A stretch of 64,000 nt of DNA, taken from Bacteroides sp. AN502(2024) (lineage in GTDB: Bacteria > Bacteroidota > Bacteroidia > Bacteroidales > Bacteroidaceae). The notes beneath the pieces are model-generated. The model was not told the DNA's origin. It did no database searches and saw nothing but the letters and a program-made list of their open reading frames with translations. The DNA is taken from positions 3,534,001-3,598,000 of the forward strand of contig NZ_JBGFSP010000003.1 of assembly GCF_041227145.1 (NCBI RefSeq). The letters are read 5' to 3'. The position numbers and the translations under genes are program-made. This document shows positions 486 through 47,238 of the stretch, in pieces (position 1 is the stretch's first letter; each line of letters starts with the position of its first letter).

Positions 486-637
486 ATACTACCAGTTTGC
501 TTTTAACGTGTTCCTGAAAAAGGTTGCAAAGGTAGGTAAACTTCCCGTTTCTCTAAAACGAAGGATTGTAAATTGTCGTTAATTCGGTTTTGTGTCATTG
601 GGCTATTCTCTATGCCCGATTGCAGGGGGTACCAAAT

Positions 638-764
638 GTTTCGCGGCATGAAACACTTGGTTTAGAGCCGCAAAACCGAGTATTTAGAGCCGCTAAATCA
701 GGTGTTTAGAGCCGCAAATCCAACTGTTTAGAGCCGCTAAACTAAGTGTTTCGCGGCTTGAAAC
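638..764. repeat. Array of six 17-bp mini-palindromes at exact 22-bp spacing
   Basis: Six units are centred at 646, 668, 690, 712, 734 and 756, exactly 22 bp apart. Most are a 5-bp stem with a 7-nt loop, for example GTTTA-gagccgc-TAAAC at 726-742 and ATTTA-gagccgc-TAAAT at 682-698; the unit at 704-720 has a shorter stem. The four inner units carry loop GAGCCGC. The two outer ones (638-654 and 748-764) carry GCGGCAT or GCGGCTT, which is the same core on the opposite strand, so the array is bounded by inverted units. Function unknown; protein binding or a multi-hairpin RNA are possible. Confidence 0.75.
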
Positions 765-1032
765 TGTCTTTCCTTGATTTAACCAGACGCTTTTTTGCTT
801 TAAAACCGTAATCCGTAGACGGTTTTTTCATTCGCATACTGATACAGTAGTCAGTTCTTTCGCAGTCATGCTGATAACATATACACAGCAACATTCCTTA
901 TACTGTTTCTGTACACAATGTGTCTTTTTCTCTATACTATTTTTACTTTTTCTTATGTTTAACAACATGTCTCTTTGTAGTGATGTTGAATTAATGGATT
1001 AATTATTAGTTGTTTATGCTCATTTATTTAGG

Positions 1033-13272: not shown

Positions 13273-13336
13273 ATGTACAGGTTTTAGGGATAAACGGCCG
13301 ATTTCAGCCTTTGTGTTGATACTGTATCTTGTAATA

Positions 13337-13440
13337 AAGGCTCTGTTTTAGCGAAACGAAGCCTGCATTTCATTCAAACGGAGCCTCTGTTTTACTCGGA
13401 TAAAGGCTCTGTTTCAACCAAATAGAGCCTCTATTTGGTT
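13337..13440. repeat. Array of five palindromic units at about 22-bp spacing
   Basis: Units with core GAGCCTC or its complement are centred near 13341, 13362, 13384, 13407 and 13428 (steps of 21-23 bp). The last is a perfect 9-bp stem, AACCAAATA / TATTTGGTT, with loop GAGCCTC. Another is AAAC-ggagcctct-GTTT at 13376-13392. The cores alternate in strand. The architecture matches the array at 638-764 but the stems differ. Confidence 0.65.
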
Positions 13441-14872: not shown

Positions 14873-14934
14873 GGATAGTGAGGCCATCCGGTCAGTATAG
14901 TGAGGCTATCACGATGGCAATGGTGTCACTATCC
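14873..14934. repeat. Array of three palindromic units at about 22-bp spacing
   Basis: Units are GGATagtgaggccATCC (14873-14889, centre 14881), ATAGtgaggCTAT (14897-14909, centre 14903) and an inverted third unit ending GGTGTCACTATCC (14922-14934). The first and last units are inverted relative to each other (GGATAGTGAGGCC against GGTGTCACTATCC, a few mismatches). This is the same plan as the arrays at 638 and 13337, with yet another sequence. The surrounding 420 bp contain no gene. Confidence 0.55.
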
Positions 14935-23623: not shown

Positions 23624-23734
23624 AGGCGCGGATTACATGGTTTTCACGTATTATGCGTTTTCTTAGCATGGTGGTTGTCATAAGGTAACTGTGTAAAATA
23701 CGTGAAATCTGTATACTCCGTGTAATCCGTGCCT
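23624..23734. repeat. Large imperfect inverted repeat
   Basis: The left arm at 23624-23652 contains GGATTACA and TTCACGTATT. The right arm at 23697-23734 contains AATACGTGAAAT and TGTAATCCG and is complementary with one insertion. It could form a long hairpin between the kbl end and the DUF2721 gene. Sequences of this kind recur between genes in many Bacteroidetes. It may act as a terminator or be a relic. Confidence 0.5.
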
Positions 23735-45863: not shown

Positions 45864-45957
45864 AATTCGTTCCACAGATGTAGAACTAAACAATAACAGA
45901 TGTGGAACTAAAGGGAAACAACTGTGGAACTAAAGAATAACCTTGGTGGAACGAATT
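45864..45957. repeat. 22-bp-period array bounded by a 12-bp inverted repeat
   Basis: Four units with core GTGGAAC (one variant GTAGAAC) are centred at 45883, 45905, 45927 and 45949, exactly 22 bp apart. The array is closed by a perfect inverted repeat, AATTCGTTCCAC (45864-45875) and GTGGAACGAATT (45946-45957). Same spacing as at 638-764, different sequence. Confidence 0.7.
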
Positions 45958-46027
45958 AATAGTAGTAATTAATCTATTAATAATCTAATATTGGGCGTGA
46001 GGAAGATTCACACAGATTGAACCCTGC

Positions 46028-46108
46028 ATGAATGTAGGTCTCAATGCCCGTGACTATATTGCAACTACAATCAGGCTGCTGATGCACGGAAATGATAATT
46101 ATGAATAG
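46028..46108 (+). pseudogene. Coding fragment, possibly from a transposase C-terminus
   Basis: An open frame MNVGLNARDYIATTIRLLMH ending in TAG at 46106-46108 looks like the tail of a larger protein. The GLNARDY segment is reminiscent of the C-terminal region of IS66-type transposases, but the piece is too short to be sure. No intact upstream part is present. Confidence 0.3.
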
Positions 46109-46263
46109 CTCGTTCCTATGTCAATGGCTGTATAAATATTATAAATCGTTAAATTTTAAAATACTCAAAAGTTCATTTTCTTGATTTCTAAGAGGGTGGA
46201 CGCTGTTGAGTGCTTACCTTGATTAACGCAATTCATAAATAAAAAATACGATATTAAGAAATA

Positions 46264-47238
46264 ATGGTAACAAAAGTATTAGTGACCGGGGGTGCTGGCT
46301 TCATCGGGTCAAACCTCTGTGAGCATCTGCTCGAAAACGGCTACACGGTGCGTTGTCTCGACAACTTCGCTACCGGTAAGTGGCAGAATATCATTCCGCT
46401 TATAAATCGCTTCCCCGAAACGTTTGAGATGCTTGTCGGCGACATCCGCAAAATCGAAGACTGTCACAAGGCTGTCGATGGTGTCGAATATGTTTTCCAC
46501 GAGGCTGCCCTCGGCTCGGTGCCTCGTTCGATCAACGACCCGATTACAACCAACAATGTCAACATCGGCGGTTTCCTCAATATGATTGTCGCCGCACGCG
46601 ATGCCGGCGTCAATCGTTTCATCTTTGCTGCGTCATCATCGACCTATGGCGATTCCAAGACGCTCCCCAAAGTCGAAGACGTAATCGGCAAACCTTTGTC
46701 ACCATACGCTATAACCAAGTATGTTGACGAGCTTTATGCCGACGTGTTCGCACGTACCTATGGAATAGAATATATCGGTCTGCGCTACTTCAATGTGTTC
46801 GGTCGTCGTCAGGATCCGCACGGAGCATACGCCGCCGTTATTCCGTTGTTTGTCAAGAAATTCATGAATCACGAAGCACCGAATATTAACGGTGACGGTG
46901 AATACAGCCGTGACTTTACTTACATCGACAACGTCATCCAGATGAATATGTTGGCGATGACAACAACAAACCCCGAAGCGGTCAACCAAATCTATAACAC
47001 CGCTTTCGGTGAGCGCACCACGCTCAATCAGCTTGTCGGGTACCTGCGCGAGTTCCTCGGTGCCAAGGATGACGCTATCAAGTCCATCGAAACGACACAT
47101 GGCCCGAATCGTACTGGCGATATCCCTCACTCATTGGCTTGCATCGACAAGGCCAAGCGATTGCTTGGCTACGCACCTAAGTTTTCGATGCGCGATGGTC
47201 TTAAAGAAGCTGTCGACTGGTATTGGGATAATCTATAA
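46264..47238 (+). CDS. UDP-N-acetylglucosamine 4-epimerase, WbpP/TviC type
   Basis: The 324-residue extended SDR has TGGAGFIGSNL (8-18), the catalytic Ser in AASSSTYGDS and YAITK. The context EDVIGKPLSPYAITKYVDEL is that of WbpP-like epimerases. It should interconvert UDP-GlcNAc and UDP-GalNAc (or their uronic acids), working with the dehydrogenase 18 bp downstream. Codons end in C or G much more often than in the genes that follow from 48610, marking this pair as a block of separate origin. Confidence 0.88.
   Translation: MVTKVLVTGGAGFIGSNLCEHLLENGYTVRCLDNFATGKWQNIIPLINRFPETFEMLVGDIRKIEDCHKAVDGVEYVFHEAALGSVPRSINDPITTNNVNIGGFLNMIVAARDAGVNRFIFAASSSTYGDSKTLPKVEDVIGKPLSPYAITKYVDELYADVFARTYGIEYIGLRYFNVFGRRQDPHGAYAAVIPLFVKKFMNHEAPNINGDGEYSRDFTYIDNVIQMNMLAMTTTNPEAVNQIYNTAFGERTTLNQLVGYLREFLGAKDDAIKSIETTHGPNRTGDIPHSLACIDKAKRLLGYAPKFSMRDGLKEAVDWYWDNL

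Follow-up and report, generated by a model that had tools for sequence, protein, structure and literature searches.

Intergenic arrays with a 22-bp period in Bacteroides and their association with BT4734/VapE primase-helicase genes

The gap between the divergent genes of an MFS transporter and a regulator in Bacteroides sp. AN502(2024) holds six short palindromes at a strictly constant spacing. The locus raises the question of what such a grid serves and how it came to lie there. It is analysed here in the window, which is the whole 64,000-nucleotide stretch of DNA under study, in the 4.8-Mb genome containing it (G000) and in other genomes. The regulator is read here as LacI-type, and its ortholog is annotated as a substrate-binding domain protein.

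The array in the window and its locus

The following features describe the locus:

638..769, no strand assigned: six-unit array, a degenerate member of family A (lag-22 identity 48/60, at most 33 in 500 shuffles)
631..661, no strand assigned: longest dyad of the array, around unit 1, with 12-nt arms that are 92 percent complementary
765..887, minus strand: relic of an IS3-family end abutting the last array unit, recognised by its similarity to IS3-flanking DNA
611..921, no strand assigned: stretch divergent from the orthologs, with the array and the IS relic; B. xylanisolvens XB1A has 812 bp with ymgE (GlsB/YeaQ) and ytxH genes instead

The six 22-bp units start at 638, 660, 682, 704, 726 and 748, and their dyad centres lie at 646, 668, 690, 712, 734 and 756, in exact 22-bp steps. 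Each unit consists of a 5-bp arm, a 7-bp centre, a second 5-bp arm and a 5-bp linker. The stems are GTTTC-7-GAAAC, GTTTA-7-AAAAC and ATTTA-7-TAAAT in units 1 to 3 (pairing 5/5, 4/5 and 5/5) and GTTTA-7-AAATC, GTTTA-7-TAAAC and GTTTC-7-GAAAC in units 4 to 6 (3/5, 5/5 and 5/5), the family A arms GTTTC/GAAAC having drifted to GTTTA/TAAAC in inner units. The four inner units have the centre GAGCCGC, and the outer two, with GCGGCAT and GCGGCTT, carry this core on the opposite strand. This unit reading agrees with the preliminary description of the locus, which had given mostly 5-bp stems, 7-nt centres and a GAGCCGC core inverted in the outer two units.

The exact 22-bp grid of six units claimed in that description is likewise borne out. 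Across the array, 48 of 60 bases are identical at lag 22, whereas dinucleotide shuffles of positions 483-1112 reach at most 33 at this lag (n=500) and at most 34 over all lags from 12 to 44 (n=100). Chance grids, which the description had named as the outcome that would make the pattern fortuitous, were therefore absent from shuffled sequence, both around the window array (maximum 34) and in the genome shuffles described below (none at 22). Its exclusion of a CRISPR also holds, since identical repeats with unique spacers of about 30 nt are replaced here by variable 17-bp units and 5-bp linkers. A search of Rfam gave no match for the window array.

The sequence at 762-887 is 76 percent identical to DNA adjoining an IS3-family transposase gene in P. 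distasonis (NZ_OY725757), and 765-887 is 85 percent identical to the flank of a second G000 array (locus L082). Within this relic, to the right of the array, an inverted repeat at 802-830 (AAAACCGT/ACGGTTTT, then T) is terminator-like.

Ten orthologous loci were found in named records. The preliminary description had proposed that the pattern would be chance if orthologous loci showed no period, and the outcome is divided: in nine of the ten, a lag-22 repeat is absent from the 2 kb upstream of the regulator, but the B. faecis ortholog (L034 1683-1800) has a 22-bp array of the unrelated family F in the gap between the MFS and ymgE genes, upstream of ymgE. Several of the nine show a lag-21 signal, which is taken as the ytxH coding repeat. 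The ymgE gene is present in eight of the ten loci and ytxH in nine; the window has neither. The absence of the array in nine orthologs looks here like the gain or loss of an element. The reverse case is found in XB1A, where a 151-bp insertion containing an array stands where G000 has 4 bp. At the window locus an array may have been gained, an IS may then have inserted beside it, and the IS body may later have been lost together with ymgE and ytxH, in this presumed order. The window copy is a solitary, degenerate (worn) remnant, a bare array beside an IS3 relic.

Dispersal, constant period and conserved half-sites

A search of G000 with the window array returns about 50 matching pieces in dozens of places. 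The pattern GTTTC-N7-GAAAC-ANNGT-GTTTC, with at most two mismatches, has 102 matches in G000 (reversed control 0) and reaches 10 or more in 15 of the 59 further genomes of the genus. In 40 genomes outside the genus it has 0-2 matches, with reversed-pattern controls summing to 0-5 a genome. Twenty family A loci from six genomes have the same grid, mostly in exact 22-bp steps, with fixed arms and with 7-bp centres drawn from a shared vocabulary. In 46 non-redundant family A chains (overlapping duplicate loci removed by hand, L054 and L055 also left out), counted between opposite-orientation neighbours only, the centre is 7 bp long in 82 of 112 cases and 8 bp in 29, and the linker is 5 bp long in 87 of 94. 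The 129 same-orientation gaps, which were kept apart, measure 17 or 18 bp in most cases, a half-site being absent there.

Information per position and covariation are both calculated on loci chosen for holding family A (L041-L060) and rest on how that family is defined. In 64 middle units flanked by near-exact neighbours, the arms hold 1.4-1.9 bits and the centre and linker 0.3-0.8. At the three variable arm positions of 219 units, one-sided changes number 47, 80 and 78, and two-sided changes number 4, 9 and 10, against 3.4, 11.0 and 10.6 expected without pairing. Because the arms change without an excess of two-sided changes, the half-sites vary independently, as for a DNA-binding protein, and these 219 units give no sign of selection for hairpin pairing. 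A period of 22 bp corresponds to about two turns of DNA in vivo. The earlier proposal of a protein array reading helical phase is thus supported at the level of sequence, with half-sites and spacing fixed, centres and linkers freer, and stems lacking a compensatory excess. Pure half-site reading does not account for the sharing of 7-bp centres between species, with 44 distinct sequences in 82 cases.

The same data bear on the idea that the arrays are RNA or single-stranded DNA hairpins selected for pairing, such as messenger stabilisers, attenuators or cruciforms. The units are palindromic and two window units have compensated stems (ATTTA/TAAAT and GTTTA/TAAAC), but the mostly one-sided arm changes, the lack of an Rfam match for the window array or for the module described below, and a mixed gene context leave this explanation extremely improbable. 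Of 42 arrays, 15 lie between convergent, 18 between co-directional and 9 between divergent genes, the corresponding counts for 247 background gaps being 61, 125 and 61. This mixed context speaks against a fixed role as promoter or terminator.

The period was examined independently of sequence. A scan for tandem identity at any lag, run on 464 kb of G000 and on samples of 140-400 kb from each of seven further Bacteroides genomes, places 57 of 69 non-coding tandem arrays at 21-23 bp or at the double (43-45 bp), at least four of the 57 being other repeats (the IS-end copies L087, L096 and L100 and the ytxH coding repeat L107). Shuffled controls of about 1 Mb, run for five rounds at a slightly looser threshold, give 1.0 array per round and none at 22. 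Outside Bacteroides the sample is small (6 arrays in total from four samples): one of five arrays in three genomes of other Bacteroidales families has this period, and none of one in 150 kb of E. coli. The IS-end copies (L087 819-900, L096 10435-10516 and L100 2246-2327) contain similar 22-bp direct repeats (GTCACCGGTAAAGTCTTGTGGG) at an apparent insertion-sequence end.

Judged by eye, the array sequences are unrelated: GTTTC-N7-GAAAC (family A), AAACAGAGGCTCTGTTT (B), CTAAAGC-N3-GCTTTAG (C), GTTCCAC...CTTTA (F) and GATAGTGACGCTATC (J), with further 22-bp types including CACTGGAGTG, GAACCCATGGG, TTTGTACAAA, TGACACCCGGGTGTCA and others. One genome (G003) has no family A match yet contains 22-bp arrays of other types. 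Of 20 arrays examined for palindromy, 5 reach p 0.05 singly and 18 lie above the null mean. Conservation of geometry without conservation of sequence, as put forward in the preliminary description, is therefore what the Bacteroides scan shows, and for its claim of an undescribed repeat type, no description was found in the literature searched, a body of text that leaves out most subscription journals.

Three of these families have members elsewhere in the window:

13333..13436, no strand assigned: family B array, AAACAGAGGCTCTGTTT + 5 bp, found by the sequence-blind scan, with the B-copy leader GGTTCAGCTTATATGCTGATGAATTTTAACC to its right
14873..14934, no strand assigned: short family J array of the GATAGTGAGGCTATC type, 22 bp, absent from the list of the blind scan
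45864..45957, minus strand: family F array, GTTCCAC...CTTTA, 22 bp, with a closing inverted unit and TTCG/CGAA ends, located by the scan at 45874-45955

The preliminary description had pointed to three further loci of about 22-bp spacing with sequences of their own. Their spacing stands, two of them (13333-13436 and 45874-45955) having been found blind and the short array at 14873-14934 having close relatives of the same period. Their standing as one-off sequences does not, since families A, B and F, the three checked, are each multi-copy and dispersed, and B and F are common to several species. Family B arrays have matches in G000, G021, G009, G034, G012, G001 and G014, several of their copies share the leader GGTTCAGCTTATATGCTGATGAATTTTAACC, and a plasmid search with the family B array gave no match. 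Family F arrays have matches in G000, G021, G012, G030, G001, G009 and G031. Units closely related to that of family J (GATAGTGACGCTATC type) recur every 22 bp in G021 (L124) and in B. xylanisolvens XB1A. Two other repeats were noted in the window. At 23697-23731, AATCCGTGT is repeated 3.9 times, with a flavour like that of CACAGATT repeats, and the stretch at 46015-46221, upstream of a gene at 46264, is 92-94 percent identical at three other places in the genome.

In situ amplification of a local seed had been offered earlier as one of two explanations. In such a process, slippage and template switching would multiply the seed into functionless palindromes and tandem repeats. As the main source of the arrays it is not supported: the window array is one of dozens of dispersed copies in G000, and array copies have flanking modules and neighbouring genes in common. 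Two observations favour it. At XB1A 5317796-5317873, CACAGATTAACACAGATT repeats form a long hairpin whose counterpart in G000 (site at 3566164) consists of no more than the seed TTAATCTGTGTTGACTC, so that the palindrome seems to have grown in place, and some neighbouring units are identical (L082). As a general cause, however, amplification predicts neither a single preferred period across unrelated sequences, and the period statistic argues against it here, nor an association with one gene family or one module, and two strains of B. finegoldii have one array in identical form. It is accordingly rated very improbable.

The arrays are also targets of insertion. An IS3-type element (rve domain) with the end TGACTTATACTAGAAATGG has 24 ends in G000 (e.g. 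L071 3084-3251 and L020 1592), and for every one of them a 22-bp array is no more than about 50 bp away (19 by script, five by eye). Such ends are often directly beside a half-site, and in three places (L071, L079 and L094) array sequence is present on both sides of the end. The 22-bp arrays are apparently the exclusive target of this element in G000.

Linkage to BT4734/VapE genes and to a repeated module

BT4734-like proteins form a family of archaeo-eukaryotic primases, and VirE (PF05272) is a predicted helicase of mobile elements, according to the accessible part of PMC5862659. Matches to PF08800 are present in 27 of 41 genomes searched, the genome of the window included. A 22-bp array lies upstream of 22 of the 28 BT4734/VapE genes examined, a count in which L336 and L342 are barely above threshold (L342 may be another motif), L351 and L348 have an unannotated gene start, L338 is the same place as L323, and two genomes may be duplicates of others (G001 and that of L034; G012 and that of L036). 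Twenty of the 28 are PF08800 matches from seven genomes, selected for their strength and by genome; the other eight are named loci of Bacteroides, Parabacteroides and Phocaeicola, chosen from 18 plasmid records. In 14 of the 20 the strongest repeat is a 21-22-bp array within about 500 bp upstream, and all eight of the named loci have an upstream array. No array was detected within about 500 bp of the other 6 of the 28 genes.

Among other long open frames, 8 of 150 have an array (Fisher p 8e-11 for the 20 genes). A stricter control, limited to genes with at least 250 of 520 bp upstream non-coding, gives 32 of 149; against it, p is 2e-5 for the 20 genes and 1e-8 for the full set of 28. The 22-bp arrays are thus common in these genomes yet clearly enriched at BT4734/VapE genes. 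The fair background upstream of other genes, about one in five, counts against the reading preferred here, and because of the stricter control, confidence in that reading was lowered from 0.60 to 0.55. The same background favours the possibility that the arrays bind a host protein that organises or regulates the chromosome, unrelated to mobile elements, with the vapE link secondary; the arrays are indeed intergenic, chromosome-wide and helically phased. Their patchy occurrence among species, their presence or absence between relatives, the enrichment upstream of vapE and the coupling to a repeated module argue against a host-protein array, which is considered very improbable.

About twelve unrelated array types, counted by eye, occur upstream of the 22 genes, for example GAACCCATGGG, TACAGCCC/GGGCTGTA, CACTGGAGTG, CACGGCCGTG and TTATCATxxxATGATAA. 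Three of the types, A, GAACCCATGGG and CACTGGAGTG, occur in solitary arrays as well as in front of the gene; in this sample no BT4734/VapE gene was preceded by an array of family B, F or J. A phage-borne origin is disfavoured, an IMG/VR search with two peptide patterns having confirmed only 3 loci, and the one IMG/VR contig gene with upstream sequence (L352) has no array. Neither the window nor the 400 kb sampled of G000 contains a relative of the BT4734/VapE gene.

The second association is with a module of about 120 bp, which by alignment contains three copies of GGTGATAGG and one inverted copy and occurs 40 times in G000. Thirty of the 40 copies were fetched and one (L302) could not be placed; among the 29 tested, a 22-bp array lies no more than 230 bp away on the same side in 22 cases and on the other side in 2, compared with 10 of 211 random non-coding windows. 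Three arrays lie between two modules and are counted twice, so that the 22 represent 19 distinct arrays. In a blind sample of 3 modules, 2 have an array. Where no array was detected (seven modules), an insertion-sequence end takes its place in three cases (L296, L309 and L310). The module-adjacent arrays belong to families A, B and C and variants. Modules have no match in Rfam, an NCBIfam search gave no match, and no shared gene was seen among the genes adjoining module copies.

Inverted module pairs enclosing an array form three elements of about 420-510 bp in G000, and four inverted pairs in other genomes are about 2.5 kb apart. At the two of these places that were read (L322 and L323), the order is module, array, gene, module, with one open frame of 702-703 aa. 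Its domains are BT4734-like_N (E 2e-41), VapE-like (8e-33) and DUF3874 (1e-22); the phage families matched by the protein are DNA helicase and DNA primase, and its best solved structure is the VapE protein 7pds. In G000, the array at L024 ends 135 bp upstream of a BT4734/VapE gene, and a second gene of this kind (C3:1394014) is flanked by inverted modules with 5.3 kb between them. No terminal module accompanies the window array.

The mobile replication gene is usually preceded by an array, and the linkage suggests a role of the arrays as landing strips for its protein. The preferred reading, with a probability of roughly 0.55, is that chromosomal mobile elements of one class, in Bacteroides and relatives, use such arrays as iteron-like initiator sites, and that the window array is a degenerate, solitary copy of this cis-acting site. 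A complete element would consist of inverted terminal modules (in one lineage the type of about 120 bp that carries GGTGATAGG repeats), an array of dyads or half-sites with a period of 22 bp, and a single gene in which a BT4734-like primase is fused to a VapE-type helicase and DUF3874. The primase-helicase, or a partner such as an adjacent HU-family protein, would bind half-sites on one face of the DNA, two turns apart, and the bound protein would start replication or copying of the element. By analogy with plasmid incompatibility groups, each lineage would have its own repeat sequence and keep the two-turn spacing set by the protein complex, and gene-less elements would persist as module-array-module copies or bare arrays. 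Initiators with lineage-specific repeats and a common two-turn architecture would account for the constant period, the variable sequence, the gene linkage and the solitary leftovers.

The main rival to the iteron reading is that the arrays are operators, at which a repressor, an HU-family protein or VapE binds cooperatively at two-turn spacing and controls vapE, the solitary arrays being leftovers or decoys. Half-sites suit an operator equally well, and the arrays lie upstream of the start codon. At L344, L349 and L350 the array lies between vapE and a divergent HU-family gene. It does so likewise at L346, though overlapping a small hypothetical gene; the HU protein there, the one tested, is HU-HIG. 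Gene-less copies keep the array between terminal modules, however, suggesting a role in propagation, and the operator role is regarded as possible and distinctly the less likely of the two.

A further, tentative and rather unlikely reading is that the elements are Bacteroidales transposable replicons, with a primase-helicase as their sole gene and no recombinase or transposase of their own. The protein, acting on the phased array and the inverted, hairpin-like modules, would copy the element to new intergenic sites, and unrelated array families within a genome would be specificity groups, like plasmid incompatibility groups. Such a replicon would be a mobile element without a recombinase.

Relation to known repeat systems

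Plasmid iterons are mostly 17-22 bp long, and displacement of two iterons by half a turn abolishes cooperativity, according to the part of PMC4980987 that was available. Iterons of RK2 (17 bp), P1 and F (19 bp) and R6K and pPS10 (22 bp), and those of SaPI and SCCmec, are likewise short, helically phased repeats near an initiator gene in the accessible text of PMC4980987 and PMC7581432. In the latter text, mobile-element initiators of this general kind bind iterons at origins, those of the SaPI type are iteron-binding helicases, and iteron sequence is specific to the lineage, as in the arrays. The features expected of an iteron origin are found in part: several short repeats in helical phase are present, and a presumed initiator gene adjoins the arrays as a class (22/28 vs 32/149), not the window copy. 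Unlike iterons, many units here are dyads instead of direct repeats, the arrays lie upstream of the gene, and dozens of chromosomal copies have no gene. SaPI origins lie downstream of rep (PMC7581432, as far as its accessible text goes), and since the arrays lie upstream, they could equally be operators.

The nearest described element found, to the extent that its source was accessible, is the BrickBuilt MITE of Porphyromonas gingivalis (PMC4596501), also of the Bacteroidales, which is intergenic, has 19 copies and consists of a leader, tandem 23-nt repeats, a tail and short terminal inverted repeats. Its number of units is variable, like that of the arrays. Unlike them, it is one sequence family and its terminal repeats resemble those of the IS5-family elements ISPg1 and ISPg9. 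In the accessible text, no replication gene was seen and the words hairpin and palindrom are absent. Terminal inverted repeats of the MITE type are found in the three module-array-module copies of G000, and the window array has no module.

REP, BIME and REPIN sequences with RAYT are also dispersed intergenic palindromes and IS3-family targets. In contrast, the arrays here are on a fixed 22-bp tandem grid and the linked gene is a primase-helicase. No Y1 transposase (PF01797) was found in G000, G001, G021 or G030, all rich in family A; the array-bearing genomes G012, G018, G031 and G033 have one each. Identity with REP/RAYT is disfavoured, with 0 PF01797 matches in G000, the genome of the window. 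The palindrome targeting of IS3 elements of the IS1397/ISKpn1 type resembles that of the IS3-type element with 24 of 24 ends at arrays in G000, with REP as the target there (PMC1525189, accessible part) and the 22-bp Bacteroides array here.

The BT4734-like primases with a VirE/VapE helicase described in PMC5862659 belong to the same Pfam families as the array-linked gene; in the accessible part of that paper, arrays, terminal modules and non-autonomous copies are unmentioned and the words iteron and tandem are absent. DUF3874 and BF3469 were not found in the literature searched, which leaves out most subscription journals, and BT4734 is rarely mentioned there.

The reading preferred here offers an explanation for much of the tandem repetition between Bacteroides genes and connects it with a gene family that is abundant. 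Should the iteron reading be true, each genome would offer natural specificity variants, a DNA repeat paired with an initiator, and the evolution of new origin specificity with helical phase kept would become directly testable.

A second type of module, noted near vapE genes, combines at least two direct copies of a motif with an inverted one. The motif differs from lineage to lineage: TTGCAGAT (L339, L022 and L024), ATGAGAAA/ATGAGAGAT (L325, L335, L337, L341 and L344), CTGACAAT (L345), GTGACAGC (L340) and GGTGATAGG (L322 and L323). A motif with two direct copies and one inverted copy, which is partly the array itself, is found in 18 of 28 vapE upstream regions and in 2 of 140 shuffles.
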